Positions 6,501-61,668 of a stretch of 64,000 nucleotides of DNA are shown piece by piece. The DNA is from Mesaphorura yosii. Lineage: Eukaryota; Arthropoda; Collembola; Poduromorpha; Tullbergiidae. The stretch is from NCBI GenBank assembly GCA_009869945.1, contig WIXG01000097.1:164419-228418 (forward strand), in the 5' to 3' direction. Within the stretch, counting starts at the first letter, position 1. Each line of letters starts with the position of its first letter. Both the position numbers and the translations under genes were made by a program. The notes beneath the pieces were generated by a model. The model searched no databases. It was not told the DNA's origin and saw only the letters and a program-made list of their open reading frames with translations.

Positions 6501-8013
6501 GATTTTCAATTTAATTGATTCATTTTTAAGTTTACATTTTCCTTTAAATATGAGTAATCGAAAGTTAGTGAAACCAGCGATTAGTGATGAGTCTGATTTT
6601 CTATCGCGTGCGATCCCGATTGTGTATGACCAAAAGTTGTTAATTTTAACTCTGTCTTCTCTTCTCTTGGACCGAATAAGTTCGGATGAACCTTCTTAAT
6701 CTTACCAATAGTTGTTCTTATCGTTGTTACATGCCTTAACTTAGTAAACGCTTCAGTAAGTAAACCTTCGGGTCTATATAAATACAGAGAAGATTAGCAT
6801 GGCCCCTGCGCAAGGATGACACACAATTCGTGAGGCGTTAAACGCTTCAATAAAAATTACATTATGCAACATTACATTACATTAATAATTAATAATAATA
6901 CATAATAAATAATTACATTAATTACAGATATGCAATTTATGCAGCTTCTCAGACTGGCAGTCCCATCGGGGTTACTGGCTGTAAGATTCTAAATGAATGC
7001 CTTGTTGAGCAAAGTGTATGACTGAAGTTTAACATCGTAACTAATTTCTGTACAGTTGTTGGAATGCAATCAAAAATATTTCATCCGCTGAATGGTGGTA
7101 CAAACTATGATCTGGATACAGTTAATGCACCATATATTTATATTGGGAATTTCGGTTCATCGACGACAACCTTATGTATTCAAGTCAAACTTGAAATTAT
7201 ATCTGATCCAATTCCAACGATGGAGCCCGTTGGGTCCGATCGTACTCTGACCGCTGAGACTGAACTGCTGAGCCAAATCTATGACTTGTGGTCGTCCAAA
7301 ACTGGAGCTGATATATTGATCCAGTGTGGTACGGAACTGTTCCAGGCTCACAAGACGATATTATCAGGTATTAAATACTAATTTATAGAAAATTAGAATG
7401 ATGGAGGAGGAAGTTGAATGAGGAATTAATTGTCATTGTTTTTCTAGCTCGAAGTCCAGTATTTGCCAGAATGCTTGAGCATGACATGGTTGAAAAGGAG
7501 ACGCAAAAAATTAAAATTGATGACATCGATCCAATAGTAATGGAGGAAACCCTCAAGTATTTATATTGTGGTGTACTCAACATCCCTTTCGATTACGACT
7601 TAATGGCTGGATTGCTGCATGCGGCCGACAAAGTATGGTTTAACAATATTTCTAAACTATTGTCAAATCGCTAACATTTTATGATGTCTTGTTTCACCAG
7701 TACGAGCTTGAGAAACTCAAGACTTTCTGCATGGAAGAGTTATTCAGGCACATTTCGCTAGAAAACGCTGGGCACTTGGCTGTACTGTCATATCTTCATA
7801 ATTGGGATCCAACGCTCAAAGATAAAATCAATCAGTATATTCAGAGGTACGTTACCTTCCTTCCTTTTCACTTCTAAAATTTTGAATTGTGGCTCCAATT
7901 CCCATGAAAATGTAATTCCAATGCTTTCCAGAAACTGTGTAACACTTTGGAAAAAGGCCAACTTCCGAAAACTTTTAGTGGAGCATCCGGCAGCTTTTGG
8001 TGATGACGACTGA
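3535..8013 (+). CDS. MATH-BTB (SPOP-like) putative Cul3 substrate adaptor
   Basis: Eleven exons join in phase to a 461-residue protein: 3535-3780, 5571-5642, 5728-5776, 5848-5898, 5977-6034, 6124-6255, 6928-6980, 7056-7367, 7448-7632, 7701-7846 and 7932-8013. The first 82 residues are Gly/Ser/His-rich and look disordered. Residues about 107-260 form a MATH domain (it opens with FNWNIQNF). Residues about 285-400 form a BTB/POZ domain with GADILIQCG, AHKTILSARSPVF and LKYLYCGVLN, followed by a short BACK-like tail ending GDDD. Proteins of this family bind substrates through MATH and cullin-3 through BTB. The N-terminal extension and first intron (1,790 bp, holding a minus-strand candidate gene) are longer than usual, so exon 1 could be an alternative start. 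The other joins are well supported. Confidence 0.85.
3934..5426 (-). CDS. Unrecognised multi-exon gene nested in MATH-BTB intron 1
   Basis: Read on the minus strand, consecutive stretches have protein-like composition and can be joined by introns of about 40-70 bp. One covers about 5100-5000 (contains GHNNPLIRES), one about 4942-4815 (YCNTCDDNIFATW), one about 4755-4690 (LLSRILATDLKNFF), one about 4620-4572 (LPGGEPSLGMRSGFPE), and one about 4503-4240 (YGHYGPGTLWCRQTKC plus further cysteines). A charged C-terminal piece ends at 3934. The best join, across 4571-4504, has a GTATGA donor, an AACAG acceptor and a conserved phase. The cysteines and a hydrophobic N-terminus near 5426 hint at secretion, but the link from that ATG to the second exon is unresolved. 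The last join, near 4237-4200, needs a very short intron or a frameshift. I do not recognise the family. A decaying gene is the alternative. Confidence 0.42.
6745..6853 (+). repeat. Near-identical 15-bp flanks around U6 copy (target-site duplication)
   Basis: The 15-mer taaacgcttcagtaa at 6745-6759 recurs as taaacgcttcaataa at 6839-6853, with one mismatch. The two copies exactly bracket the U6-like sequence. A duplication of this length around a small-RNA copy is what LINE-mediated retro-insertion leaves. Confidence 0.6.
6760..6838 (+). pseudogene. Retro-inserted, truncated U6 snRNA copy
   Basis: Positions 6783-6822 match the core of spliceosomal U6 RNA, including the ACAGAG box and AGATTAGCATGG, followed by CCCCTGCGCAAGGATGACAC. 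Up to about 6838 it continues with a slightly altered AATTCGTGAGGCGTT end. The 5' part is defective. Only a TTCGG loop remnant at about 6767-6771 precedes the core, and the usual spacer between the 5' stem-loop and ACAGAG is shortened by roughly 15 bases. No terminating T-run follows. It lies in the sense orientation within the 6256-6927 intron of the MATH-BTB gene. The deletion and the flanking repeat argue for a dead copy rather than a working U6 gene. Confidence 0.75.
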
Positions 8014-17438: not shown

Positions 17439-20400
17439 TCAGTTTTCCCCGAGAAATGGCAAGCTTCCTTTCCCGCTTGTGTCCTCACTGCCAACCCCAG
17501 ACTTGGAACCTTCTGGTGGTTTGTAATGCGGGTTCGGCTTTACCGTTCCAGTAAACTTGAGAGCAAACTTCAACTCGGAGACCATTTCCTCGTGTGCCGA
17601 TTTCTGCAATTAAAGTTAAAATTAGTATTTTTTATGCTAGTCGGCGTTTAATGAATAAATTACGTACATCCGTCATTCCTGCTGACTGTTGTTTCCAACC
17701 CCAAATGAACTCTCCAATATTGACGAGCATGGCAGCAAAACAACCTCCCACCAGAACAACGAATACACCACCTACGTTCGCCAATGCCAAAGCTTCCACA
17801 TTTCCACTCACTCCAGATCCCTTAAGCCAATGAAAAGAAAACTCATTAGTACCGAAGGATATGCGATTATTCCTGCCTTCCGCCTTAGCGTACCTCGCAA
17901 GCCGGCGGATTCACTTTTTCCTTCCACCACTTCCGTTTGAACTTTGTAAGTTCACCTAGAATTGAAAATGGGTTTCAAATATTAACAACTACGAATCAAA
18001 ATGACTTCTGCCAACCTCTTTCTTGCAACTGAAGTATTGCACCGTTGAAGTCTCCGAGATAACTTGAATTTTTAGGCAGCACAATCCCGTAGCCTTTGTT
18101 ATCCAGCAACCCGCCCAACTGCGCCAGGCCACACTCAATTTCTATGTTGTAGTCGATCAGCGTTGACTCCATGAAGAAAGCATACTTTCCCTTATCCCTC
18201 TTCACTCGATTAATACCGTCGATATTTTTCTCCATGTATGGCGGCGGTGACATTTTTTCCATCTTGAGATACGCGTCGTGAGCAATTGTCCCCGGCTGTC
18301 CATCTGAAAACATTTTTCTATTGAATCCATCTTGATCACAGCAAAGTTTTTTCGATTACTGTTGGAACCTTTGAAGAAATTTCGAGTGCTTCCTCGACTA
18401 ACACAACCATATTTCACTTTGTCTTGATTTACTAAATCTTTCAGATCTTTAATGCTGTCATCTTTGTCTTGAACAATGAGGAAAAGTGCCAAACCAGCAG
18501 TGTAAGAACTGACCATGATGAGGGTGAAGAACCACCAAATTGCACCTACAATTCTCGTTGAAGTGGCCCTAAAAATGTGAAAAATGAAATCAACTCGCAA
18601 GTATCTGTAAATCTGTCCACTACGAAGTAAGCATGACTTACTTTGGAGCAATATCAGACCCCTGAAAAGAGAATAGATAATGAGTCCAGATTACTTCATT
18701 GTTAAAGGCATCAATTAGGAAGGACTTTAACCAACCTGTTGCATGATTGATCCTACGGCAAACCAAATACTGTTTGACAGACTGAACTGATTGTGAAGCT
18801 TTGTTGGATTTTGAATGCAGGGCATTGGGCAGTCCCACTCCTGAAAGGATGAAGTGCGGATTTGAATATAAATTGGTGATTAAGCGCTGAACTCAATACA
18901 ATGTATTACCTTTGGCGAAACTCTGGCAATAATGAAGAGGGTTAACGAGACTCCGAAGAACGCTAAAAGCGTGAACATCCAAACCTCAATTGCAAAGGGG
19001 CTCATAAACGACAGCAGACCAGGTGGCTTGGCCATGGGCGTGACGTATAAAATTGATATGCCCTGATTATTGAAACAAATAATTGATACTTAATGATAAC
19101 AGGCCCGGGGGTTTAAGGCAGATACCACACACAAAATCTATTCTGATCAGATTTTTACCAAATTTTGGTGCGGCATAGTAAAATCCACATCTCTCTGGCG
19201 AATTTTATTAATTGCAAGGTCCCCAATTGCAATATCTGCTGTTTTCTCAACAATCTCTCTGATCATTCCATCCCACCTCTTCGTAGTTTCATTCCAACCT
19301 CCGTAGCTGGTGCCATCGTAGACTAGCTCGATCTCGTAGTCGAACTTGAGTAGCTCGGATAATCGGTGAATCAAGTCAATGTTGTATCCTTCGAAGCGGT
19401 CATTTCCCGACAAAGCGGATACGTTCTCCTTGAGCTTACAAAATGGCCAGCTGACAATTGTTACCACTCGAAATTTTCTCTGGGAAATCGGGAGAGTGTC
19501 TAAGTACTCCCGATCAGTGCTATTGTGAGTCTGCTGCGTCTCTGCAGCCGGCCCGTCCATGGCAAATTTCGTGACACTTGACCATGTCCCATACTTTTCA
19601 ATACCGTCTGCTTCGAGCCCAACCACATCCATCACAACATCAGTTCGAAATCCACTTTGCCCAAAACTGATCGGACCGGATAAGCCCTCAAATTGAGTCT
19701 AACAAAAGATGTTAGGAAAACGTTAAATTTAATTAACCATGCGCCCCGAAATGAAGTAGGAAGAGGAATTTTACCGTTTTCATGAAATTCATCAGCGTAC
19801 TTCCGTGACCAGATTTCCAATCGTTACCAGCACATTGCAAGGTTTGCGTATTGATTTTATCAGATTTTTCTAACTTTGGTAGAATATGCCCAAATAATTG
19901 CAGCGCGTCATAAACCAGCGCAATATTCAACTACAATAATAGAAAAACTGAACAGAAATTACAATGGAACTAATGAAAATGACGCTACGTGCTTTACCGG
20001 CATTGCTTTAGAACTTGAAATCAGACGTTGTACGGTTTGTTTAGTGAGATGAGCATCTCTCCACGAGACGCTACTTGAAAAACTTAATTGTGATTGTAGT
20101 ACTTCAGCTTCTTGTAGCTTATGATCTAAACCAGCCAATGAGTTAAATTCGGAAATAACACGGCGAACTTCCGGACGGTCAGGATTAACCAGACGATACG
20201 CATAGATTGGAACCTTGCCATATTTGTAATCATCCAAATTCATAGTATGAATGTCCTGCAGTCGGATGAAATGTTCATAAGGTTAAACCGCAACAAGACT
20301 AGATAAACATACGAGTTACCAGCGAGGTTAGGAAGTATTGATACTGTCGGTTCATCAAGCCAACTTGTTGTGCTTGTTTCAGTACAATTTCAGTTTTGTA

Positions 20401-22120: not shown

Positions 22121-25100
22121 TTAGACGCCTGTTAATTTTGGATGCATATGAATAGATTTGATCTTGTGATATAGCCTTTTTTGATAATTACTAACGTCGG
22201 GAAGATTCGGTTGCTTCTTCCAGCCCCAGAGGAATTCACTCGCTGTCATCAATACGCCGAGTATGCAGCCCGCAACAAGTACCACAAAGATGCCGCTTAG
22301 ATTGGCCAACTCCAATGCTTGGACACTGACGCCACTTAAGCCAGCTCCCTAAAAGTATAATTAGCAGTACACTTTTGTATTTTTCAGTTGTAAGAAGACC
22401 ATTACCTCACAAACTGGAGGATTCACTTTATCCTTCCACCATTTTCTCTTTAATTCAGTGAGTGTTCCCTGCTCTTGCAGGTGCAGGATTGCTCCATTAA
22501 AGTCGCCGAGATCTGTAGAATCTGGAAAAAGAAATCGGCAATCAAAATGTTAAAGGAAGAGATTCAATTGTAAAAGATTCAGGGCGCTTTACTTTTGGGC
22601 AGCACAATTCCGTATCCTTTATTGTCTAGCAAGCCTCCTAAAAGCCAAATTACACATGCTTAAACGGAACACGGAAAGAAAGTTTCCTTAAATGAATATA
22701 TACCTAATTGCGCTAACCCACACTCTTTCACCACATTATACTCAATCAAGGTGGACTCCATTATGAATGCATAATCTCCATGTCCTGACATTACTTTCTT
22801 GATGCCTTGAATGTTCTTCTCCATGAAAGGACTTGGCTTCATTTTCTCCATCTTCTCCATTGCCTGCTTGGGAATTGAGTTGTCAGGAGCTCCCTACAAA
22901 TACAAGAATTCTACATGAAAAAAATCGCCTGCCCAATCAGAGTGCACATGTATATGCGTGGGAATTGTCATACATTGAAGAACTGGTAAGTACTTCCGCC
23001 GCTAACGCAGCCGTACCGAACTTTGTCTTGGTTCACCAAGTCTTTCAGATCTTTGATGCTATCGTCCTTATCTTGAACAATCAGGAATAACGCGAGGCCA
23101 GCTGTGTATGAACTGACCATAATGAGAGTGAAGAACCACCACATGGCGGCAACAATTCTTGTCGACGTGGATTTCGGAGCCAAATCAGACCCCTAAAACA
23201 AATTCAAAACAATCCAGAAATTGTGCATATTACAATTCAGAAAGTACCTGTTGCATTATTGCACCGATTGTGAACCAGATGCTATTTGATAAACTGAACT
23301 GATTGTGGAGTTTCGTCGGGTTTTGTATGCAAGGCATCGGACAATCCCATTCCTTGATAAAGAGCCATGACAACTCATGATCTCTAATCTGTGTTAATAT
23401 TATACGCAGTCAGACTACCTTTGGTGACACTCTTGCCACCACGAACAAAGTGAGGGAAACGCCAAAAAACGCAACGACAGTGCAGATCCACACTTCCAAA
23501 GCGAACGGATTCATGAATGAAAGTAAGCCTGGAGGTTTCGCCATTGGAAGAACGTACAGAATAGATATGCCCTGATGAATTGTGATGTCAATTTATGACT
23601 GATACCAGAGACCAGAATCGAATCGCTCTCAGTCGAGTTCTTTACCAAATTCATGTGCGGCATTGTGAAATCGACAGCTTTTTGGCGAACTTCGCTGATT
23701 GCCAAATCACCAACTGCGATGTCGGCAGTCTAAGATTCAGATTATAAATTAATCCTCAGTCTAGTATAAACGAGTGACGAGTGATAGCATTCATAAGTCA
23801 GTGTTGATTAAGTTGGTTTCTTACTCCTTCGATAATCTCTTTGATCATGCCGTCCCATTCTTGCGTAGCTTCATTGAAGGCACCGTAACTTTTCTCGTCA
23901 TAAACCAATTTGAACTCATACTTGAATTTTAAGATCTCGGATACCTTCTGAATGAGATCAATGTTGTAGCCTTCGAATCTGTCGTTGCCGGTCAGAACCG
24001 ACGTATTCTGTTTCATCATGCAGAACGGCTCGTTCTGAAAAAAAATTGTACCCGTTAAGCATTGACGGAGTAAAACTCATTGGAATTTACGATGATGGTA
24101 ACGATTCGGAGATTTCTTTCAGTTAACGGAATAGGTCCAATTGGCGTTGTCTCCTCCTTTGAGTCGGGCGAAATTGGCTCCCAAGAAAATTTAGAACTCA
24201 AGGCACTTGACCACGTTCCGATCTTTGTCAAGCCCTTTTGATTAACAAGATTATATGAGAATGAGCATGAAATGAAGCATAAACGCAAACTAAAAATAAA
24301 ATGTGCACATTGGACTATAAAACCTACTTGTCTGTGAAGTTGCACAATGTCCAGAGAAATATCTCCACGAAAACCATTGTTGTCGAAGCTGATCGACCCG
24401 GTCAAACCCTCAAATCTTGTCTATTAAATAAAAGTGTGTAAATTGTACTCAACTATAGGCGCATTATTTAATTCTAAACTTACGGTTTTCATATAACTCA
24501 TAATGGTCGATGCATGTCCGGACTTCCATTCATTTGCAGAGCACGACAATGGCTGAATGTTTATCTTGTCCGATCGACTCAAATTTGGCAGAATGTGGCC
24601 GAACAATTGAACCGCGTCATACGTCAGTGCGATATGCAGCTGCGTTTATGGCATCAAAGAATTTCTGAGCTTGGGACAATTAATCCAAGGCAAGAAGAAA
24701 TTGTCTCGCTCACCGGAATTGACCTGGAGCTCGAAATTATGCGCTTCACTGCCTCTTTCGTCATATGAATGTTTCTCCATGATGGACTTTGACCGAGATT
24801 AAGTTGAGACTGAAGCAAAGAGTTCTCTGGCAACCTGTTTTTCAGATCAAGACCTGCCAGACTGTTAAATTCTTCGATGACGCGATGAACCTCAGGATGT
24901 TCAGGGTTAACCATGCGAAATGCGCGTATTGCGATTTTCCCATACATGTAATCACTCAAATCCATTGTATGAATGTCCTGCGAGGCACAGATTTACAAAT
25001 TATCAGGGATTATGTCACTTTTAGCCACAAATATTTGTGCAATCGGCAATTAGCAGGCGTCCTCCAAAACGCATGCACGACTTGTCCCACATTTTTCTTT

Positions 25101-46102: not shown

Positions 46103-49010
46103 ATGCTGACTATTAGGCTATTATTAATAATTATAGGTGAGTATTAATCGAAGACAGGTGGAAATTGGAAATAAGGCAGATCAGTGAATACATTGCTAAT
46201 TGTTTCAACATTTGATTAGGCCTGTGCGTAGTTTTGCTTATCAAGAACAACAAAACAAATGTTCTTAACATCATTCGAACGACCTTTAAACAATTATTTG
46301 CACCACCACCGAGATGGCACATAAATAAGAAGGAACTACGGGACAAACGGTTCCTTGTTGGCGAAACTGTTAAATTCGTCATCAAAGTAAGCTGAATTCT
46401 GTGATTTGAACTTTGACGGACCTTTACATGGACGACCTGCCTTTGTATGTATTGCAGTATGTCGGCGAGGGGTCCTTCAATGAAGATCTGGCATTTCTTC
46501 GTCTACAAATTCAACAGAACTCTCAACCAATTGTTCATCTGAAGGAAGTAGTAGAAGACGAGAAATCAGTTAGAGTTAAATTCTCAGTGCAGAAAGCCAT
46601 TTTAGTCAGCATCGAATTATTCGACCGAAATCAAATTATCGCTCAGTCGAGCCCGATCCACGTGTCATTTCTTCCCGGTCCACCTCAACCAGACAAGACT
46701 ATTTGTGTTAAACCGAGTCCGATCATACAGTGTACAACATTTATGGATAAGTCCGTACACATTCAGCCTAGGGATAGGTTTGAAAATAATTGTTTAATCT
46801 GCGACGTGAATTTAAGCAAGTTCCAATTCCAAGCAATGATAGCTGACCACAGCTTGAGACAAGATGCAATCTGTGATAGTTCATTCGTATTTGCCTCCAA
46901 CTATTCCAGTGAAATCCTTCTCAAAATACAGTTTCATTATCCTGGTATATTTATTGGATCAGTTTCATTCGACGGACAAGTCATCGGTGGATATGGGGTT
47001 TTTAATATTGTATCTTTAACAAATGCAGAAGAAACTAGTTTGCAGTACATTCTTGCCAATTCTCCGAGCTGGAAGTACCATGAAGGACGACTCCGCGCTC
47101 TTGATAATAAGATTGATTCACGAAATAAGAAGATCTACATTTACGTTTCACAAAAACAGATCTCTGTCCAAGAGTACATCCTGAAATTCATTCCGATAAA
47201 AATTGCAACTTTTCGCGTCTCGCCCATGACAAAGGTAACCAGAATCTGATTGTTATCTCACGCGACGTTTTTTTGAGAATTCAAACTCATGATATTTTTC
47301 TTTCTAAACAGATGGAACTCCTATTTGCCGACAATGACCAAAATAATTACACATTTAGTATTCATGATTGTATTCAACCAAAAGTCACAATAGAAATGGA
47401 TCAAACTTCAACGAGACTGGTCTATGCAATGTTTACGCATTTCCTGCAGCAGCGCCATGGTGGTTCAGAGTCGTTCGCCGATAAGCAGAGATATTTCTAC
47501 AATGAACTGGCCGACGTACGGAATAAAGGAGGAACTCTGCGAATCTCATTTGTAACTCTTAAAATCACCCGTCAAGATATTGTCAACTCGGTTAGGCACA
47601 ATTTTGTTTGTCCCATTTGCCGTTGATTGCTCACGCTAATTGTTGGGCTTTGTATTTCTAGACTTTGCAGAGTACTTACTACTACAACGCTAAAGACTGG
47701 TGCAAGAATTTCAAAATTGAATTTGACCAGGAAGAAGGTAATTAAATCAATCGCTAGGCTAGAGTGAGAGTATTGCATAATGCTGCCAGTGGTTGAGTGT
47801 GAGTGACTGACTCTATTTATACACGAACAGGGCTCGATGGCGGAGGGCTGAGAAGAGAATGGCTGAATTTGATCTGTGCAAAATTATTTGAAAATAACGA
47901 AACCGGGATGTTTTGTTCATTTGGGACTTCAAGACTGGTCCATCCGAACGTGTCCAGAGACAGTGCCTGGACAAAAAGACACTACGAGCTAGCGGGAAAG
48001 ATTGTTGGCAAATGTTTATTTGAGTCAGCCATGGGTAATGGCTACAAGACAATGGTAAATGGAAGATTTTCACGCTCATTTCTTGCGCAGGTGCTTGGTC
48101 TACGACCTAATTACAAGGTAAACACCCAAAAACCATTATCAAAGTCAGGCAGCTTGGCAGATAACAATACGCTTTTCTTATGTCAGCACTTTGAACAAGA
48201 TGACCCGGAATTGTATCTGGGCAAGGTTAAATACGTGCTGGAAAACGATGTGGATAAGCTAGAGCTGACATATTCTGAGGAGGAATACACGGGCCAAGTG
48301 GTGAAGGTAGTCACTGATGAGGTTCAGTGATAAATAGGCAAGGAAATGCGAGATTTTTTTTTTCGCAGGTTGTTGATTTAATACCGAATGGATCTAACAA
48401 GACTGTGACGAATGAAAATAAGGAAGAATATTTGAACGCCTTAGCAAATTACAGACTTGGCACTAAGGTCAAAAAGGAAATTGAATCATTTTGCAAAGGA
48501 CTTCACTACATTGTACCGGATGAGCTCCTTTCACAATTCGATGAAAATGAAATCGAGGTTCGTTACATTGCGCACATATCAGAGAAGGTGTGGGCTTCGT
48601 TGTGACTAATCTTTTTAATTTCCTTTCCATTACAGTTGCTCATGTGCGGAAAGAGCGAATTCAGTGTGAATGACTTGAGGAAGAATTTTTCGGCTAGCTT
48701 TACATTGGGGTTTGACACTGACTACAAGCGGGTGGTGGAATGGTTTTTCATGAGCGTGGAAAACATGACTGAGGATGAGAAGGCCAAACTCTTGCAATTC
48801 ATCACAGGAAGCTCACTTCTGCCACACGGTGGTTTCGCAAATCTTAGTCCACGATTGAGAATCATTCTTGGTGCCGAATATGGAAAGTTGCCTACCGCCC
48901 AAACTTGTGCAAACCAAATCTGCCTTTCCGATCACAACTCGTTTGAAGAATTTGAAAAGTGCTTATTGCTTGCGGTGAATGAAGGAAACCAGGGCTTCGG
49001 TTTTAAATAG
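46103..49010 (+). CDS. AREL1: Apoptosis-resistant HECT-type E3 ubiquitin ligase
   Basis: Nine exons join in phase to 767 residues (46103-46136, 46220-46386, 46458-47234, 47312-47590, 47662-47737, 47831-48117, 48187-48306, 48369-48557, 48636-49010). The short first exon supplies an N-terminal hydrophobic helix (LTIRLLLIIIGLCVVLL), matching the membrane helix at the start of vertebrate AREL1. A filamin-like region follows, then KIYIYVSQKQISVQEYIL, and the HECT domain from about GLDGGGLRREWLNLIC to the C-terminus. The catalytic Cys is in LPTAQTCANQICLS. The domain also has DDPELYLGKVKYVL and LLQFITGSSLLPHGGF and ends GNQGFGFK. The mammalian enzyme ubiquitinates IAP antagonists. The start is the first ATG whose exon splices in phase into the conserved helix. 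An aataaa near 49066 is the likely polyadenylation signal. Confidence 0.92.
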
Positions 49011-49195
49011 CTCAACTTCACAGATTGTTCCTAAAATTCCATTTAAAGAAGTAATTAAATACGTCAATAAACATACCACTAAATATGACCCAAGTGATTG
49101 ACCATTGTATGGATGCTATTGCTTTTATTTTCGATGGGTTAGAGTTAACAACTATCACGATGTAACTATTCAAACTCGATAGTTGACTGGGTCCT

Positions 49196-49739
49196 CTAAG
49201 GTTCCAAAATGCGCCCACTCAATGGACGGTACGGCCTGTCAACTGGATAATGCACAACTTCGCGTGATGGAATTGGTTCGTACTCCAAATTGACTTCAGG
49301 CGCGCTCGCTGGTGGAATGCTCACGTCAGCCTCTGCGTCAACGGATTGTTGTGGTCGCTTCAGTAGAATGTTCACATTTGTGCCCGCGCCTGCCGTACTC
49401 TTGAATGCGGCTTTGATGACTTCCTCGAGACGGTAGTTTGGCACAACAACGTTCAGCTGCTGCGCTTGTCCAGTTCCCTTCAACCACAGAATATCTTCAC
49501 GTTGGATAACGCATGGATTGGTTGGAATGCAATTGAAGGAATAAACTCCTGGAGCCGTTTCCGTTCGCTGGCATTTCACTCTGGTATCGCAGTTGCTCGA
49601 GCTTGTGAATGATTTGAGCTGCGGTCTTGCTATCACTGACGAGATAGCCAAATACACACCAATTATCTATAGACAAAAAGAGAGACTTTAGATGGTTTTC
49701 CTTCAACCAGATTGTTAGTCTTACCAGAATGCTCTTCAT
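49196..49739 (-). CDS. Unrecognised secreted protein family, copy 1
   Basis: A 15-base exon (49725-49739, MKSIL) joins a second exon ending at 49196, giving about 161 residues. The signal peptide (IGVYLAISSVIARPQ) spans the intron. The mature protein has four cysteines (CDTRVKC, FNCIPTNPC), then IQREDILWLKG, QQLNVVVPNYRLEEVIKAAF, NVNILLKRPQQSVDAEADV, a Pro/Glu stretch, and the end YRPLSGRILEP. These blocks are nearly invariant in the two copies ending at 51322 and 54530. This copy differs most: a Ser-rich start (SFTSSSNC) and an STAGAG linker. I know no family with this pattern. It might be a cuticular, haemolymph or egg-coat protein, which is a guess. It converges on AREL1, 185 bp away. Confidence 0.78.
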
Positions 49740-51321
49740 TTTGAAAACTTATTTAACTTATTCGGAATGTCTGTATCCACAATGTTCAAGAACTAAAGCT
49801 CTAGCCAAGAATGAATTTTAACTTACGGAAGGGCGAGAGTTTTTATACAAAAACCCAAAAGAAGAATAAAAGATTATGCTAAATAAAGTAACAGGTCAAG
49901 TCTTACATGCAATCATAGCATCTTCTTTTATTTCTTTTCGGCAATTGCAATTATTGTACAGATTTTCTTGAAAAGTAAAAGAATATGTCCTTAAGAGATT
50001 AGGCATCTCGTTAACGTTGAATCACAAGCTAATGGCTTTAATTTTAGAATAGTTGTCAAATACGTACTTGGCCTTTCACCTCTAGCCCATAAAATCAACT
50101 TTTATTCCCCATTCTTGTACTTTGTAGCTTATGGGTCATGTCATGCGTCCATGCTTTTGACATAATGACGCAAATTTATGTGAGAGTGTTGATCTAGTTG
50201 GCATTGGATAAGACACGCATTACTGCTTGTCACAATTGCAATTCACGAATGCATTTCTGGTACAATTGTGACGCATCGTGTTCCATTTGATTCTATTTCC
50301 AGGCCATTTTTCGCATTTCAGCGATTTTCCGATTCTTTTATGTAACTCGCCTTAGCCGCCCACGTGCCCACCCACTTTAAAGAGAAATCACCCAATGCGC
50401 ACCCTTTTAAGCTGATTATCGTTCTCATTATTCATATTTAACAAAATCAGCAGCGCAGAAGCAAAGAATTAAAGAATAAAGTTGTCACCTTAATTCTGTC
50501 CTCAAATACGAAAGATATTAGGGTCATGATAACGCCAAGTAAGAAAAGTACGATAACGATGACACTTCGTTGAAGTCATATAGCTCACCAGAAGGTAAAC
50601 TCAAGTTGCATCACTTGAATCACTTGCCAATTACGTAATCTAATACGAAAAGTCTGAATTCATTCTCCAACAAGCCAATTGATTTCAGATTTCTGCAGAA
50701 TTGGCTGTTAAAGTAAACGAACCGGTCATCAGCTTGCCATGCTGGTCTCAATCAGATTCAGACATTTTGACTGCATTCTTAATTTCCGTGAATATAACGG
50801 GCAAATCAACGCTCAACAATCCGTCATCTCAAAGTGAGGAGCGTACACGCACACGCTTGAAAACTTGCCCTGCATCCACTGCATTTTCGCATTTCTTGTT
50901 TAATTGAGAGTAGCATAACAGCGCATTCGTCTAAGATGCGCAAAAGCCTACTGTCTGCTACGTTTTGTTAATGACGACCGGTCGAATATTGCAGCTTGAC
51001 AACTTTCAACCTAAACCACCTCAAATCGAATGCAACAATCTAAATGCTTTTACTTTCGTGAAGGTAACGTCAAGGTCACTCGGTCGAAGGCAAATCGAAG
51101 AGACAGCATACGAAACCGGGCATGAAGCAGTACAAAATTATGACTGAAGATTTATTTTATAATTTTTACGGAAATGTCTCGATTTTTTACAAAAATACAA
51201 AATTCAGATGAGTGTAGAGCAGAAAATTATGAATAAAGTGGATCTTGGTCGGGAGGAGAACATGGATAACATTAGCAATATCGGATCAAATAATTGGCCG
51301 AAGAGGAAAATAAAAGGGTGC
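49740..51321. other. Intergenic spacer between family copies 1 and 2
   Basis: It holds the copy 1 promoter and, at its right end, the copy 2 3' flank (minus-strand AATAAA, plus-strand tttatt, near 51151). Plus-strand frames here are unsupported. No degenerate extra copy of the family was found. Confidence 0.45.
49841..49848 (-). promoter_or_regulatory. TATA box of secreted-family copy 1
   Basis: Read on the minus strand this is GTATAAAA, about 105 bp before the ATG at 49739. The other two copies have the same element at nearly the same distance, which supports it as a core promoter. Confidence 0.6.
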
Positions 51322-52006
51322 TTATGGTTCCAAGATTGGACCGCTGAGAGGGCGGTATTGCCTGTCAACTGGGTAATGGACGGTCTCGCGTTGAGGAACT
51401 GGCTCGTACTCCAAGTTGACTTCTGGGGCGGCTGCTGGTGGAATATTAACATCAGCTTCGGCATCGACGGATTGTTCTGGTCTCTTGAGCAGAATGTTGA
51501 CGTTGGTGGCACCACCTGGGGTGCTCTTGAAAGCAGCCTTAATGACTTCCTCGAGACGGTAGTTGGGAACGACAACGTTCAGTTGTTGAGACTCGGTTGT
51601 TCCCTTCAACCACAGGATGTCTTCACGTTGGATGAGGCATGGGTTCCTGGTGTCGCAAGTGAAGGCGTAGACTCCGGGGCTGGTCTCAGAACGCTGGCAC
51701 GTCACTCTCAGGTCGCAGGCACCACCGCTGCTGCTGCTGCTGCTTCCATACTGGGGTCTAGCCAGGGCGACTGAGACAGTCATCAAAAATACCTAAAATG
51801 AAAAGAGAAGTGTTTGAAAAGGACAGCGCACCAAAGAATGAAGGGACGCGCTATGATATGTATCCACAGTTCAGTCTTTCTCCAGCTGTTCGTTGTGAAG
51901 ATCCAAATGTAATGTTTCAGGTTGCAAAAAGATTTCTATTTTCCACTAGGCCTTTCAGAGGTTATGTGTCACTAAATTAAGGCTAACTCACCAAAATAGA
52001 CTTCAT
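51322..52006 (-). CDS. Unrecognised secreted protein family, copy 2
   Basis: Exon 1 (51992-52006, MKSIL) and a second exon ending at 51322 are separated by about 200 bp and join in phase 0, giving about 161 residues. The signal peptide is completed by VFLMTVSVALARPQ. A Ser-rich spacer (YGSSSSSSGGAC) precedes CDLRVTCQRSETSPGVYAFT, then CDTRNPCLIQREDILWLKG, QQLNVVVPNYRLEEVIKAAF and NVNILLKRPEQSVDAEADVN. The end is RQYRPLSGPILEP. The four cysteines and the C-terminal block align with the copies ending at 49196 and 54530 without gaps. Long plus-strand frames (for example 51208-51774) are antisense shadows. Confidence 0.8.
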
Positions 52007-52108
52007 TTTGAAAAAGATGCTGCAGAGTTCCACACGAATGACAGAAGCACAAAATGTCTTGAATTTACTCAAGATGAGGAATGGACAGATCGTTGGAAAC
52101 GTGTGCCC

Positions 52109-52117
52109 CTTATAAAG
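52109..52117 (-). promoter_or_regulatory. TATA box of secreted-family copy 2
   Basis: On the minus strand this reads CTTTATAAG, about 105 bp before the ATG at 52006, matching position and form in the other copies. Confidence 0.6.
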
Positions 52118-53389
52118 CCTTTGCGTCATGAAAAACACACGACGCTTCGCTTCATGGAATTAAGCACATGCAGTGCGGGCTGTCTTCCACAGCATCGTAT
52201 CTCATTAATCATCATCACCATCAGTTTGTTCATCTCCAAATATTTAAAATGCAAATTGGGTACATGGCACCGTAATAAAGTGTGTGACTCCTTCAGAACA
52301 TGTGTAATTTTGGGTAAAAATACCAACAATGATACCCAACACCATGCGCAAGTATAAATAGTAGTCATTTGGAGGTGTACAACAATGTGAATTAAAATTA
52401 AGAAAAATCATTAATTTTATAAATACTTGTTAGCTTTCGGCGTATCACAATGCAACCACAGTCAGTGGTTGCAGTTATGAAGATGAGCTTCTTCGTAATA
52501 AGAGTTGAAAGCTGTCCTTAGCCTTTTTTCTTGTATTCGCGTAAATACGAAACACTTTCACGACCACGAACATGGAAATGGTACGACTCTACTCGGCAAT
52601 GCAAACTACGATGTGATGTGAAATGTAAATTAGTTTGATAATCACCTTGATTCGATCTTCACTTAAGATTGGAATCGTATCTTTTATGATTGTAGTATGC
52701 TTCTTGTTTCATGTGTCACTCACGACACAGGTTTGGGTTATTTTTCGCCTCTCGTAGTGGATGACCCTTAACGCTCCTTCATTCTCGAAAGCTCATTGAC
52801 GCGCTCACTGACGTTGCTCGCGTTTGCTTTGTTCTTCTTGGAATTAATTATAAGTTCGGTCAAGGGCAAAATGGCTCTTTGTGCTCCTCTGTGCGGCCCC
52901 AACACTGTGCTACCTGATTCAGGAACTTGTCAGAAATATTGACGAAATATTCAATTTTATGACATGTTGATTGCTATATCTTTCTCGACTGAAATTAGTC
53001 ACCGTGTATTCGCAGACTAATTGGTGGCTAAGTTTCGTCTGAAAGTTAACCTTTGCCCAGGCTACTGAAATGTAGCATGCCGGAATCTTGTTTGCCTTCC
53101 AGCTCCCACCTGTATATTTGGAATTGCCCTACGAAATTGAAGTTTAACTAATTGTAGGAAATGCATGAAGGACGCTGTCTAGGTACAAATTTAACTAAAT
53201 ATCATGGGTTTCTAGACTGTTCGGCGCGTGATGTGGAAACGTACAGACAAAACTGAATGAGGCCACAGATCTCTAGTGAATTTCAGCTGAAAGCGCCGAG
53301 AATGGCATTCTTTAGATTGTGTAATTGGTGGACGCGTCAGGTAGGGCGAAAGTGATTGAATTTAGGAGTTTTCATCTCAGAAAGGTGAC

Positions 53390-53626
53390 ATGATGGTAAA
53401 GACTCGAGGGATTGACGATTTCACGATTACTAGATTAACTGCTTCACAGGCTTCACTGGTTGAGACCACAAGTCATTTTCTCTGCAAAATCTCTGCGAAC
53501 GTTACAAAGCGAATCATCAAAAAAAATCAGCCAATCACAAGCTCTCAGGATGAGTTTTCGAAATACGCAAGAGTTGGTGATAAAATCAAACTAACATTGA
53601 ACGAGCTTGCCCTTACAAATTCGTGA
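53390..53626 (+). pseudogene. Possible GET1/WRB-like fragment
   Basis: A 78-residue plus-strand frame contains QDEFSKYARVGDKIKLTLNE, which resembles the coiled-coil motif of GET1/WRB tail-anchored-protein receptors (DEFARYARLERKINK in human). The upstream and downstream membrane helices of that family are absent and the next exon is not obvious. Either a small degraded copy lies here or the similarity is accidental. Confidence 0.25.
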
Positions 53627-54529
53627 GTTCTGAATATCAATTAATTTGCACGTTTATGCGCTTTGTTTTGAATTACGCATAAACTCTGTCATCATGACCC
53701 TGTTCGATGACTAATGACATTTTCAAGTACAGTGGACGGTGGAAGAGTTTTCGCAAAAGGGGTGTTTTCTTGAGTTATTGCTCCTTCTCAAAATCGCAAA
53801 ATCGTGATGCTAATTTCTCGCAATCGTTTACCATCTGGTTTAACTTCAAGCATGTATTACGCAATCTTCGGCGGCAAGTCGCATTCGCATTACGCATTCT
53901 TAATAGTCTCGTGCAACTCCTATTGTTGACTGAATCTGTTTGCATTGTCTTTTTTGTGTAGACTACATTGCACTCTGCTGCAATTTGCAATTCTAAAGCA
54001 ATAAAGTGAATTGGTCACTTCCTGCCTGCGTTATAGTCAAACCAGCTTCCCATGATAACGGGAAGAATTACCAGACATCAAATGCTTGGGTTTTATCCGT
54101 TGTTATATCGTAATTTCTCGACGTGAACGCCAACCGAAAAGATTCTACACGGAAGAAGAAACTTCACAAGTTACAACGGAGATACAATGTTCCAAAGAGA
54201 ATTCCGTTTTGTATAACTACGCAATCAACTACGAAACTGAAGCCTCTTTGCAATGTTCTGTGCAATGGAGAGCCCAGTTTAAATCGAGAATTTTCGTGGA
54301 AAGATAAACCCAAACCAAACTTGGTCGTAAAACAATAAAAACGTACGTGTTTTTGGCGATTTATTTAAAATACAGGTTGCGCACAAAACTGTCCTTAAAA
54401 TCACATAAAACTAGGTCTAGACATGAATGACTAACAGACTTATAAGCGATTGTTAACATAAAAGGTATAATTTACTGTTTTGTCTTTGGATACTGCAAGA
54501 AGGAAAAGATTAACAGAATTAGTGTACAT

Positions 54530-55154
54530 TTAAGGTTCCAGGATGCGTCCACTGAGTGGTCTGTAGGGCCTGTCCACTGGGTAGTGAATGGTCTCACGTG
54601 GTGGAGTTGGTTCGTACTCCAAGTTGACTTCTGGAGCAGCTGCTGGCGGAATGTTGACATCAGCTTCGGCATCGACGGTCTGTTGTGGTCTCTTGAGCAG
54701 AATGTTAACGTTGGTGGCACCACCTGGCGTGCTCTTGAAGGCGGCCTTGATGACCTCTTCGAGGCGGTAGTTGGGAACGACAACGTTCAACTGCTGTGCT
54801 TCAGTTGATCCCTTCAGCCAGAGAACATCCTCACGCTGAATGACACATGGGTTGGAAGTGTCACATGTGAAGTCGAAGACTCCTGGAGCCGACTCACGGC
54901 GCTGGCACTTGACAGTAAGGGCACAGTCACGCCCGACTCCAGTGGAAGCGATTTGCTGCTGCTGCTCGTAGGGGTTGGAAGGAGTTGGGTATGAGTATTG
55001 CGGTGCTGCGACGGCGGCAGCCACGGTCATCAAAACTACCTGTGCGCAAACAAATGTCAATGTGTTAATTACAACGTGAACAAGTTCCGAGTTTATCCTA
55101 ACTTGACAATACGAGCGTGCTGCAACAAAGATGACTTACCAAAACGGTCTTCAT
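54530..55154 (-). CDS. Unrecognised secreted protein family, copy 3
   Basis: Exon 1 (55140-55154, MKTVL) joins exon 2 at about 55038 in phase 0, giving about 174 residues. The signal peptide ends near VVLMTVAAAVAAPQ. The spacer before the cysteine core is longer than in the other copies and Gln/Tyr/Pro-rich (YSYPTPSNPYEQQQQ). The core is CALTVKCQRRESAPGVFDFT, then CDTSNPCVIQREDVLWLKG, QQLNVVVPNYRLEEVIKAAF and NVNILLKRPQQTVDAEADVN. The end is RPYRPLSGRILEP. It is closest to the copy ending at 51322 in the core. All three genes share strand, intron position, four cysteines and promoter layout, so they form a tandem array. Function is unknown. Confidence 0.8.
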
Positions 55155-58100
55155 ATTGCAATCCTTTGTTCGTGTTATGTAATCGGCACAGTGGCACGTT
55201 GATTGTTGAGATGAACGATGTATTGTTGTGAATGGTTCACGAATTACGGAAGGAGGCAGCTTTATAAAGCTCTCCACGCTCTGTGCATTCTCGTAGCATT
55301 GGAGGAGACAGAAGTAAGGCACGCCGCTGTGAAGTCAGTAAAGTGGACATCTCGTTTAACTAATTATTACCCTAATCTTACCACTGGTAAGTGTATGCTA
55401 ATCTGTAACTGGCTGCTCGGTGCTCAGTCAGTAGCTTCTGCGCCAATTGTATTCCTTCTCATGATCTCATGTATTGAGAGCACAAGGAAAACAAAGATCT
55501 CCTGGCGGCTACGACTGACTGACGTGTGTGTACTTTGGACGAATTGGCATGCGTACACGTTCGTGCATGTGCCTCATTGTTGAATCAGATTGTTGATAGT
55601 GCAAGTTGTACAGCACAGCACTCAATCATAATTTGGGATACTTGCATAAATTACCATGCTGCTTTACCCTCCAAAGCCAACAGCCAATATTCGTCTTGAA
55701 AATTCGCAATTCGCACATACCCTTTTCATTCACCTTAACCTTTTTACCAAACTGGAAACCCAAATGTCCCATCCCGTCCCGTCATCGCAGTCGTAGTCGA
55801 AGTACAACAATCACTGCAATTACTAATCCATATCCATATCGCTCGCCACTCATTACGAGCCAGTGCATCAATGAAAGTGAATTGTACGTAATTATTATGC
55901 ATCGACAGTTAATGTTATGTATCTGTATCATCAGCAGTGCGCAAGAAAACTACACGTCAACGTCCTACAAGACAAGACAAGTCACAAGAGATTAGGCGTA
56001 TAATTATTTTCTCACTCGCCTTCACTGCACTGCACAGAATGATGAAACAAAGAGATCGACCCTAAACCATAAAGCCTCAAGGTTACCGCTGATGGCTGAT
56101 TATCCCATCACGATTATAACAGCGCACTGAGAAGCGTCTTCGTCTTGGTTGGAAACAAAAGTCTCAAGTCTGTGTTTTGGCTGAATTTTTTACAGTTTTG
56201 AGCTAGATTTGTCATGCATGGCTCTCGAATGAACGTTCACGAACGGTTTTACTATGTGAATGACATAATAATAACAAAGATGTGAAGGTAAACAGATTAA
56301 ATGAGGTGTGGTGAGGTTTAGCGTTCTGTGTTGGCGTACGGTCACAGGAATTACGAAACAATTCGTGAAATGACGCGCGCTGGATGCGGTAATGCGAATT
56401 ACACAGACGCGGCGCGGCTTTCAATGACATTGAAGATCCATCCTCATCGCAGCCGCAACGTAGTGGTTTGACATTCGGCATAATTACTACCTTTATCCCA
56501 AGAAATTGTGGCTACATGCCTGTAATTTTGACAGCAATAATCAGCAACCTTAAAATACGCTCTTTGCAAGCTAATCTCATCTCAACTCATCAATTCGTCC
56601 AATTTAAAAGGTCACTGTCTAATTTATTTTGGCTTTTACACTTCGAGCATGCCTTTTTGTTATCTTAATTACTTTTATAAGATAATACATCACATAAGAC
56701 AGAATTTACAAAATGACAGCGGAGAACAGCGCGTAGCCCCATTAAGACATGGAAAGTGGACAACAAATCAACGCTGACGCTGGCCGATAAGAAAATAGGT
56801 TGGCGATGGTGGCATGAGGCAAGACATTTAGACTGGATGTATGTAAAATGAGATTAAATGGAGTTGATGCCAGTAATTATTAAGTGAACATGCCGCCGAA
56901 CAAGAATTACATCGCATTCAGCAATTTGCAATCAGATTTTTTGCTCCGGCGTGGCGTGAAGATGCTCCCATTTAATGAAGTAAATAAATACACCCAAACC
57001 ATTAAGCTTCACGCGACCAGCGAACCAAGTCGCGTCGCAAAAAATTGTGCCCAAACTGCATTTTCTTGGTAATTTGCATGATTGCGTAACTCAACGCGAT
57101 TAATAATCGTGCCTTCTTCGTATTGTTTTTGGGACAGCGGCAGCACTGCCACTCATGAAAGACGAAATGACGAGACGGTCAATACAAGCAGACGCAAAAG
57201 GATGTAAATGCAGGACAACCCAAAAATTCGTTTTTATCAACAAAAATGAATTTTTGCTTCTGGCTAGGACGCTTGGGTCGTTATTTTGAGTCAACAGTCA
57301 CGTAATTAGTATTCTACTATCTGCTTTAAAGGGGAAATGAAATACTTATTAACGTAAACAGTAGTCACCTAATTACTCAGAACCTCAGCCGTACCGAGGA
57401 GTTGAATGGGAACGACCGGACGAAAGCGAAATTTATTAGTAAGACGCACGACGACGACGAGTCGCTTCACTGTGCGAGGAAATGTAGGACAAGAGCAACT
57501 TGTACAAGATTATGTTGTACCGTCTCATTCATTTCTCGCGAATGGCGAATCCACCAATGTCTGCTCGAAGTTACAGCATCGTAAATGTTTCATAGCTGTT
57601 GTGAGCAGAATCATGAGGAAAATGGGAAGAGGCTTAGAAATTGGCGAACTGTGAAAAAGTCGAACAAACAACACAAGACGAAAACATGGGACAAGGTGCA
57701 CAAAATTGGATATGAGCGGTGAGCTCAGCGGAATGAAATTCGAATGGTAGAAGGTGTGATTCAGCTTTGACTCATCGCATATTACTAATATTGCAAGCAC
57801 CGATTCTGTACGCTCAAACGCATTTTAGCGTACACGCGATTTGTACGATTATATCCCCGATCGAAATCCATGTGAATCTGTGTAATAAACAAGTTGCGCT
57901 TAAATTACGATGCTCAAAACGTAAAACTGGCGCTCACGTTGGGTCATTTTTCGAACCATGCTTGATGAGAATTTTAAGGCCCTACATATTCAAACCTCAC
58001 AAACCAAGAGTTCGATAACGAACCATTTCGGTGAAGAAATCGCCCATCGAGCACTTGATCACTTTAAATTGCAATATTAATCACTCAATTGCTGACTTTT

Positions 58101-58818: not shown

Positions 58819-61668
58819 ATGCTCAAGTACATCATTTTACTTGCTGCCCTTCACGGGTGCCTGGAATCAGTCGATTGCCAGCAAAAGAGTCCTATCCACG
58901 TTAGGGTGACATCGCATCTTCAGCCGAGGACAAGAACAAAGAGGGCAGATACTCCTCATTACAGCGTCCAGCTCATAACCACGGACAATAAACTCGTATC
59001 AGACCTTTCTCTAGTTCCAATACGTAAGTCATCGTAGTATGCGGGTTTACGGCCTAAATGCAGGCTGTTCATACTGTATTGACTTAAATTCAAAGGAACG
59101 TCGGTTTTCTCGTCGAACTTCAAGCTCAGCGTTGGAAAAGCTGACTCCAATGGAAATTTAATCCTCGAAGAGGTGCATCTCCCAAATGCCGACTTCGATC
59201 CAGAGGAAGGAATTTACGTCGATGAGGAGAAAGAGGCTGTTTTGAAGCTGTCGAAGTCAACTCTTGAACTTGTAAGCTACCGCAAGACGCCGAGTACACT
59301 ACGAATTTACCTGCAACTTCATCTTGGGTTTGTAAGTATTAATTTTGATGCTTAGAACGGCGTTCTTCAAGGAAAGTCTCTTACGTTTGAGAATGGCCAA
59401 CATTTTCTGATCGAGCACATGAACAATTCGGATGTTCCCCACAATGATGGTATTTTGCCTAAAATTATTAGTTCAATTCGACACGATGACGATTGAGTAC
59501 AGTTACGTTGATTCATAGTTGCATCTGTTCACCAGCCCCTTATCAAAAGTCATGCTTTGAAAAAGAGAGCAATCTCTCATCCACGGCAATATCAGCCTGA
59601 GCTGAGCATTGTTGTGGACGCCAGCAATTATAATGACTTGCATCAGGACCCAGTGAACATCCTGAACTACTTCGCCGTTCTGATGCACGCTGTGAACACT
59701 CGGTACGCAACCATTCGTGACTTCAAAGTCAACTTCACAATTGCCGGTATCACAGCCCTGAAGTCGCCAGAAGATCAGCCATTCATTACTGAATGCTATC
59801 AGCGATCCGTGGGAGGCGGTTGTGATGTCACTGGTGTTTTGATGGACCTTTTCTCTCGCTGGGCTTTTAAGAACCGTGACGTGCTGCCAACAAGTGACAT
59901 GACGGCGCTTGTCCACAATGTCACTCCAGGAGCAAATGGCGCAAATGGAGCCGGATGGATTGCGAGCGTTTGCAAGAAGAATGTTGCGAATGTGACGGAC
60001 CAGAGCACAAGTGTGGTTGCTGATCGTGGAGGGTCATTTGCTGGTGTACATACAATGACTCATGAACTAGCACACAAGTGAGATCCATTCCTCAGGAAAA
60101 GGGTCGAGTCTTATGCCAGTTTCCAGCTCATTGTCCTAAAATTTTCAGTCTTGGAGCACCGCATGACGGAGAAATGGTGGAAGGCCAGGATGCACGATCC
60201 TGCCAGTACTCTGACGGATACATAATGAGCTATGCAAAGTATGGCTGGCCAAATAAGTTCCGATTTTCACCCTGCAGCATAGCATTAATGAAATCCTACC
60301 TCGCGTAAGTGCAACGAAAATCCAGACTAAAATGTACTTAAGATTATATGGCATTTCTACGATAGGGCAAACGGGTCATGCTTGACCATAACGAACAATC
60401 CCGATGACCATCCTCCAGCGAGCACTCAAGGTGGCGAATTTGTGTCGATGAATACGCAATGCCAGACGCAATTCAAGTACAACAAAAATGTTTTCGCGTA
60501 CACTTACGGTCGAGATTACGACGAGCAATGTAGAAAATTGGTTTGTGTAATTCAAGCGCTGTACTATCCCGGAGATCAGCAAGTGGTTTCTGACGGCTAC
60601 TATCCAGCAGAGTTGAGCAGCTGCGGTGTCAACGGAGTGAGTCGACATACGCGCTAAATACTGAGTCAGTTAATGTTGCCAGTTTCTCAAGGATTGCATT
60701 TGTTCCACCTACAGGTATGTCAGGATGGAGTCTGCGTCAGCCGACCGAGTAAGTTTTCAGATACGTTCTTTACGAAAAACAAAAATAATATTGCTAAATC
60801 CTAATGAAGGTCTCAGCTCTCAATGCAGAGCTTCGTTGGAAAATGACAAGGCATCGGTCGACACATCCCTGCTACCTGACGCGCTCTGTCAAAATTTGGG
60901 ATGCACGTATTCCAATACGAGAGGAATCGCACAGACCAGACTTCTGGGTCGGGCTCCATTGGAATTTTCATCATGTGGAGTGAATGGGGTGAGAGGAACT
61001 TTGGAGTAGAAGTAAAAATATCTTAATTCGGGGTTTAATTACAGCGCTGCATTAACGGTACGTGCCGACAACCTCCTCCTGCACCAGGTAAGGCCTCAGA
61101 AGCGACACGTGCAATGAAATTTAAAACTCACTACACGTGGATGCATGGTGCAATAATAATTGCATTAATTTCGTAGATATGACTCGCCAATGCCAGGTTC
61201 TACTGAACAACTCAAATGCAATGGTAAAACCGACAGACAGTTACGGTATCGTGACAACGGATGTCCAGTGCAGTTATCTCACATGCTTTGTTCCTCCAAC
61301 ACCTTATCAATCTCCACTGCCACCGCTGGATTTCTCTCCTTGTGGGGAGGCTGGGGTACCGTTAGTCTTGTACAGTCTTTACTAATTAACTAACAAAGCG
61401 AAGCTTTGTGCAGTCTTTACTGTCCTTGCTGTTAGCATTACCCTTTTCGGAAGCGTTGACATGTGACAATAATTCCTATTTTCTCTCGCAGAACTTCTGC
61501 TTCCGAGGAACCTGTAACACGCCTTCCGCACATTCGGATCTGGAGACTAGAAGAACAACCATTGGTTCCGGTGTAGGAATTTTTCAACGTGGCTTTAGAA
61601 AGTTCAAGGGCCTTTTTGGCACACTCTCTCTTGGAATTAAAGGTCTTTTCCGTGGTCGAGCCGATTAA
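58819..61668 (+). CDS. Secreted reprolysin-type (ADAMTS-like, M12B) metalloprotease
   Basis: About ten exons give roughly 640 residues. The signal peptide (YIILLAALHGCLES) is followed by a pro-region with TKRA, a possible furin site, and later LKKRAISHPRQYQPELS before the catalytic domain, which starts near LSIVVDASNYND. The zinc site THELAHNLGAPHD spans an intron after about 60077 and keeps the three His, the Glu and the Asp of reprolysins. The Met-turn is YIMSYAKYGW. Three Cys-rich repeats follow, each ending in CGxxGxC-type spacing (SSCGVNGVCQDGVC, SSCGVNGRCINGTC, SPCGEAGNFCFRGTC). The C-terminus is a basic amphipathic tail (GIFQRGFRKFKGLFG, LGIKGLFRGRAD). There is no thrombospondin repeat. 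Tick and other arthropod secreted M12B proteases have this plan. The 59271-59354 intron has an in-frame alternative. Confidence 0.85.

Follow-up and report, generated by a model that had tools for sequence, protein, structure and literature searches.

Three tandem genes on the minus strand of a 64,000-nucleotide (nt) stretch of the genome of the collembolan Mesaphorura yosii (contig WIXG01000097.1, positions 164,419 to 228,418 of the forward strand; hereafter the window) probably belong to an uncatalogued arthropod family of structural cuticular proteins. This reading was reached because their very short first exon and TATA box match the anatomy described for cuticular protein genes. The gene anatomy probably assigns them to a known class, and the novelty lies in the family itself, whose constrained domain of about 130 residues contains a cysteine pair shared by all members that are complete in that region. 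According to the available text of PMC2259329, cuticular protein genes make up one of the larger gene classes in arthropods, and Anopheles possesses 156 CPR genes, more than 1% of its predicted genes.

The three genes, designated A (49196-49739), B (51322-52006) and C (54530-55154), encode predicted products of 161, 161 and 174 amino acids, with exon-intron models that were read from the genomic sequence and not from transcripts. Each gene starts with a coding exon of 15 nt, or five codons, which encodes MKSIL in A (49725-49739) and B (51992-52006) and MKTVL in C (55140-55154). A single phase-0 intron with a GT donor and an AG acceptor follows (58, 199 and 100 nt, respectively), and one long second exon that includes the stop codon carries the remainder of the gene (49196-49666 in A, 51322-51792 in B and 54530-55039 in C). 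All three products begin with a hydrophobic, signal-peptide-like N-terminus, as judged by hydrophobicity rather than by a predictor. A TATA box starts 108, 108 and 112 base pairs (bp) upstream of the ATG in A (TATAAA, 49842-49847, with an initiator-like TCATT 33 bp further on), B (TATAAG, 52109-52114) and C (TATAAA, 55261-55266), and an AATAAA polyadenylation signal is found no more than 170 bp past each stop codon (49124-49129, 51151-51156 and 54360-54365), all on the minus strand. A preliminary description of this DNA had reported a minus-strand trio with signal-peptide-like starts, five-codon first exons, TATA boxes about 105 bp upstream and four cysteines in a CxxxxxC...CxxxNPC arrangement, and all of these features were recovered in A, B and C.

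The core of each protein, taken from the first cysteine to the C-terminal end, is encoded by 49199-49591 in A, 51325-51717 in B and 54533-54925 in C, and the cores of A and B matched that of C with E values of 1.2e-69 and 1.5e-73. Its cysteines are arranged as C-x5-C followed by C-x3-N-P-C, and 99 of its 131 residues are identical in the three proteins. The last 100 residues, previously described as nearly invariant, deserve this term within the trio, where 82 of them are identical (compared with 17 of the first 31), but not beyond it, where identity to gene C falls to 30-64%. The sharp boundary that had been drawn between a variable leader and the core was not observed; identity rises instead as a gradient, with 10, 14, 17, 17, 16 and 15 identical positions per successive 20 residues from the first cysteine and 10 in the final 11. 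The conserved partner deduced from the contrast between leader and core is also weakly founded, since the CPR family shows the same combination of a domain under constraint and diverse flanks of low complexity.

Nonsynonymous divergence of the core (dN) is 0.094-0.130, whereas synonymous divergence (dS) reaches 1.03 between B and C, 2.16 between A and B and 2.53 between A and C, which shows that the core is under purifying selection and that the copies are old. DNA repeats of at least 25 nt present in all three copies occur only in the coding core and around the start codon. Recent gene conversion is unlikely to have kept the core uniform in the pairs that include A, given that their dS values are near saturation. 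Because dS between B and C is lower than in the other pairs, there is room for some conversion between these two genes, and within codons 34-90 their dS is 0.71, below the whole-core value.

Rather than the three-gene family first proposed, at least 14 loci were found when the core of gene C was used to search the 93-Mb genome of the same species at an E value of 0.001 or better; this and the other locus counts are lower bounds. The loci form four groups, comprising A, B, C, L004 and L005 (group I), L006, L007 and L011 (group II), L008-L010 (group III) and L012-L014 (group IV). All 14 were recovered with a group IV query and also with a group II query, which additionally found a second fragment of L011, and 11 of the 14 were recovered with a group III query, together with one stray weak match (E 0.42). 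In the tree, the forks of groups III and IV are strongly supported and that of group II moderately; group I has no resolved fork, and group III attaches to it on a long branch. Four cysteines are present in five of the 12 aligned members, which are those of group I (the first cysteine of L004 is displaced), and six carry the inner pair alone (in L012 its first cysteine is one column off), while one cysteine is seen in L014, which is truncated where its contig ends. The inner cysteines are separated by 12-13 residues. Since the inner pair is widespread among the 12 members and the outer pair is confined to group I, the former probably represents the ancestral state of this set, and the latter is specific to the group of the window.

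The group II copy L011 (G000:C56:242283-242694) is decayed, with one stop codon and a frame break. Near-identical family copies, L013 and L014, lie at the starts of contigs C158 and C221; L013 differs from L014 by an 11-base deletion that shifts its frame, and the two, located at an assembly break, are either allelic or recently duplicated. Judged from these sequences, the family shows birth and death of copies, because L011 is broken and L013 frameshifted.

None of the 12 members matched a Pfam profile at E 10, although the HMMER filters drop most matches above 0.1, and these scans revealed no known chitin-binding domain. NCBIfam returned only two chance-level matches, each to one member (E 0.04 and 0.05). 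Among PDB sequences, a phmmer search with gene C gave no match and the family profile found only 4hhu (OR280) at E 0.87. No relative was found with a few patterns in viral contigs, phages and bacterial and archaeal genomes, as expected for an animal gene, and the available parts of the open literature, searched with peptide motifs and for cuticular and crustacean families, named no matching family. The earlier statement that no known family fits thus holds for Pfam, NCBIfam and PDB sequences, where the members have no credible match and profile searches with the core gave no strong match to a named family. To the extent of these libraries, the family is absent from Pfam and uncatalogued.

The same searches bear on a different possibility, that the genes encode a soluble secreted factor, such as an immune effector, a protease inhibitor or a ligand carrier, whose disulfide-stabilised core binds one conserved target and whose leader is a disposable propeptide. 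A small, secreted-looking, cysteine-paired domain under strong constraint would suit such a factor, and the preliminary description leaned in this direction. However, no family of this kind was matched in Pfam or PDB sequences, the translated leaders of A, B and C contain no dibasic cleavage pair, and the constraint spans the whole domain including the tail, unlike a variable recognition loop. We therefore regard a soluble factor as improbable.

The assignment to the cuticle is carried by gene anatomy. A first exon of 4-8 codons, a phase-0 intron and then a hydrophobic stretch were modelled in all 11 members with a readable 5' end (11 of the 14 loci, L011, L013 and L014 standing outside this count), with an alternative model of a contiguous start also possible for L010. 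In ten of the 11, a TATA box lies 70-177 bp upstream, within the 250 bp considered, compared with about 6% of 120-bp stretches drawn at random from the window, and four of the 11 have a canonical initiator. In Anopheles, as far as the available text of PMC2259329 describes, 86% of the intron-bearing CPR genes have an intron in the signal-peptide region, with first exons of 3-36 nt, TATAAA is present in 82% of CPR genes, and these genes form tandem arrays and encode a constrained domain flanked by variable sequence of low complexity. The extracellular structural or binding module envisaged earlier fits this anatomy and can be sharpened to a cuticular one by comparison with that source, although a TATA box and a short exon splitting the signal peptide are suggestive and not exclusive.

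Similar gene structures were modelled in the M. yosii genome itself, which yielded 62 CPR matches and four Tweedle matches. A short split exon was modelled in two of the four Tweedle genes (L015 and L017) and in six of 30 CPR loci, where it has 2-3 codons. The other CPR loci comprise three with a contiguous start and 21 without a model, and 16 of these 21 have at most 30 open codons before the domain, which places their start in a different exon. By comparison, none of eight trypsin genes gave a split-exon model. At E 1e-5 the genome contains, beside the 62 CPR matches, 169 trypsin match segments (segments rather than genes, from 150 scored of 394 candidates) and two globin matches. A search of the assembly for COX1 returned no match. 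Five sites fitting the consensus of beta-FTZ-F1, a factor of the ecdysone cascade, occur in the window, two of them in the cluster (51070, between A and B, and 54742, in the coding exon of gene C), and they were not used as evidence.

Membership in the established cuticular families was considered in turn. CPR genes (PF00379) share with this family the TATA box, the short first exon within the signal peptide, the tandem arrays and a conserved domain with variable flanks, but the family lacks the R&R consensus. In hhalign, its profile scored 13.5 (p 0.13) against CPR, based on 23 of 30 fetched CPR loci with seven left out. CPR membership is ruled out by this lack of profile similarity together with the absence of a Pfam match. 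CPCFC proteins (PF17223), which are defined by a repeated 16-residue motif with C-x5-C, resemble group I in that spacing, but seven of the 12 aligned members lack it. The eight PF17223 matches in the genome, the best of them on contig C142, fall on none of the family loci, and CPCFC membership is ruled out by this and by the absence of a Pfam match. The crustacean larval factor (Clf)/FCP3 domain likewise occurs in a small secreted protein with paired cysteines and a proposed role in the larval cuticle; compared by description only, it has ten conserved cysteines in the available text of PMC6391395, as opposed to two or four here.

Tweedle (PF03103, DUF243) was the one cuticular family with a possible kinship. 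Profile comparison of all 12 members with Tweedle by hhalign gave a weak similarity (score 23.9, p 0.0029) between the second half of the core and Tweedle blocks 3-4, which rose to a score of 27.2 (p 0.00078) for groups I, II and IV, with one register throughout. The observed score was reached by none of 200 column shuffles of trimmed profiles, none of 150 further column shuffles and none of 146 unrelated open frames. The part of a review available to us (PMC12426002) gives block 3 as T-x2-Y-V-L-x-K and block 4 as K-P-E-V-x-F-x2-Y, and dates the origin of Tweedle to about 300 million years ago. Possible counterparts in the family are TNVNILLK and APEVNLEY, and its segments TNVNILLKRP and PEVNLEYE resemble the two blocks in order and rough spacing. 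Low-complexity flanks and, in two of the four Tweedle genes of this genome, the split signal-peptide exon are shared. Unlike Tweedle, the family lacks the proline-rich blocks 1-2 (K-x2-5-Y-x3-4-P), as judged by eye on the alignment, and has one or two cysteine pairs and an N-terminal half of its own. A distant relationship between the C-terminal half of the core and Tweedle blocks 3 and 4 is possible.

Two interpretations of this similarity were weighed. That the genes simply form a divergent subfamily of Tweedle would account for the single register over blocks 3-4 and for the first-exon anatomy in common with two of the four Tweedle genes. We consider this very doubtful, as PF03103, at an E value of 10, gave no match to any of the 12 members yet found four other loci in the genome, blocks 1-2 and the proline-rich spacers were not seen, and the four Tweedle domain rows contain no cysteine as opposed to the cysteine pair of the family. 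More plausible, though still tentative, is a new cuticular family with distant homology to Tweedle; it would have kept blocks 3-4 and exchanged the proline-rich N-terminal blocks for a disulfide-locked hairpin. One of the four Tweedle loci, L018 (G000:C645:25256-25540), carries its domain within an open frame of 1149 amino acids with many threonine/proline-rich stretches, which is presumably large for a Tweedle protein.

Two points weigh against a cuticular family linked to Tweedle: HMMER found the Tweedle similarity insignificant, and no result here pinpoints the cuticle itself. The second point favours a structural family of the eggshell (chorion or cyst) or of the peritrophic matrix, which would have the same secretory gene anatomy and another site of deposition. 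Silkmoth chorion genes are likewise tandemly repeated, with a TATA box and a short exon for the signal peptide, so these features are equally expected under that explanation. A limited literature search on chorion gene anatomy returned nothing to the point. Against it, the starts of the mature chains resemble those in two of six CPR models of the same genome (DARPQSQR in L045 and ARPRPQ in L064), and the possible Tweedle kinship also points to the cuticle. On this evidence, eggshell or peritrophic matrix is unlikely, if less so than a soluble factor.

If the family is cuticular, a mechanism can be proposed. The proteins, whose hydrophobic start suggests secretion, would be released by epidermal cells at moulting, and the common cysteine pair would form a disulfide that locks the hairpin VKC-x12-TC. 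The segments VLWLKG, QLNVVVPNY, NVNILLKRP and PEVNLEYE may form the strands of a small domain of predominantly beta structure, which would bind chitin or another matrix protein, while a short N-terminal linker of variable sequence and the tyrosine/proline-rich tail HYPVDRPYRPLSG might tune packing or cross-linking.

Elsewhere in the window, exons of a HECT ubiquitin ligase on the plus strand (47803-49007) converge on gene A in a tail-to-tail arrangement and end about 190 bp from the gene A stop codon, and a plus-strand exon of a reprolysin-like M12B metalloprotease is found at 59512-60078. A U6 spliceosomal RNA gene (6762-6849, plus strand, 65.7 bits) and a minus-strand exon of an axonemal dynein light chain (PF10211, 12960-13454) were also identified. 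An ionotropic glutamate receptor ligand-binding domain (PF10613) was identified in the first of two minus-strand frames, at 19150-19698, and the similarity of the other frame, at 24058-24420, suggests a second copy.

Annotation overlooks families that have no profile, and a family of 14 loci outside Pfam would mean that the inventory of cuticle components for this lineage is incomplete. The ordinary reading, a further cuticular family, would by itself be a modest addition. The Tweedle link, if real, bears on the origin of Tweedle, which would then be one branch of a wider and older superfamily.

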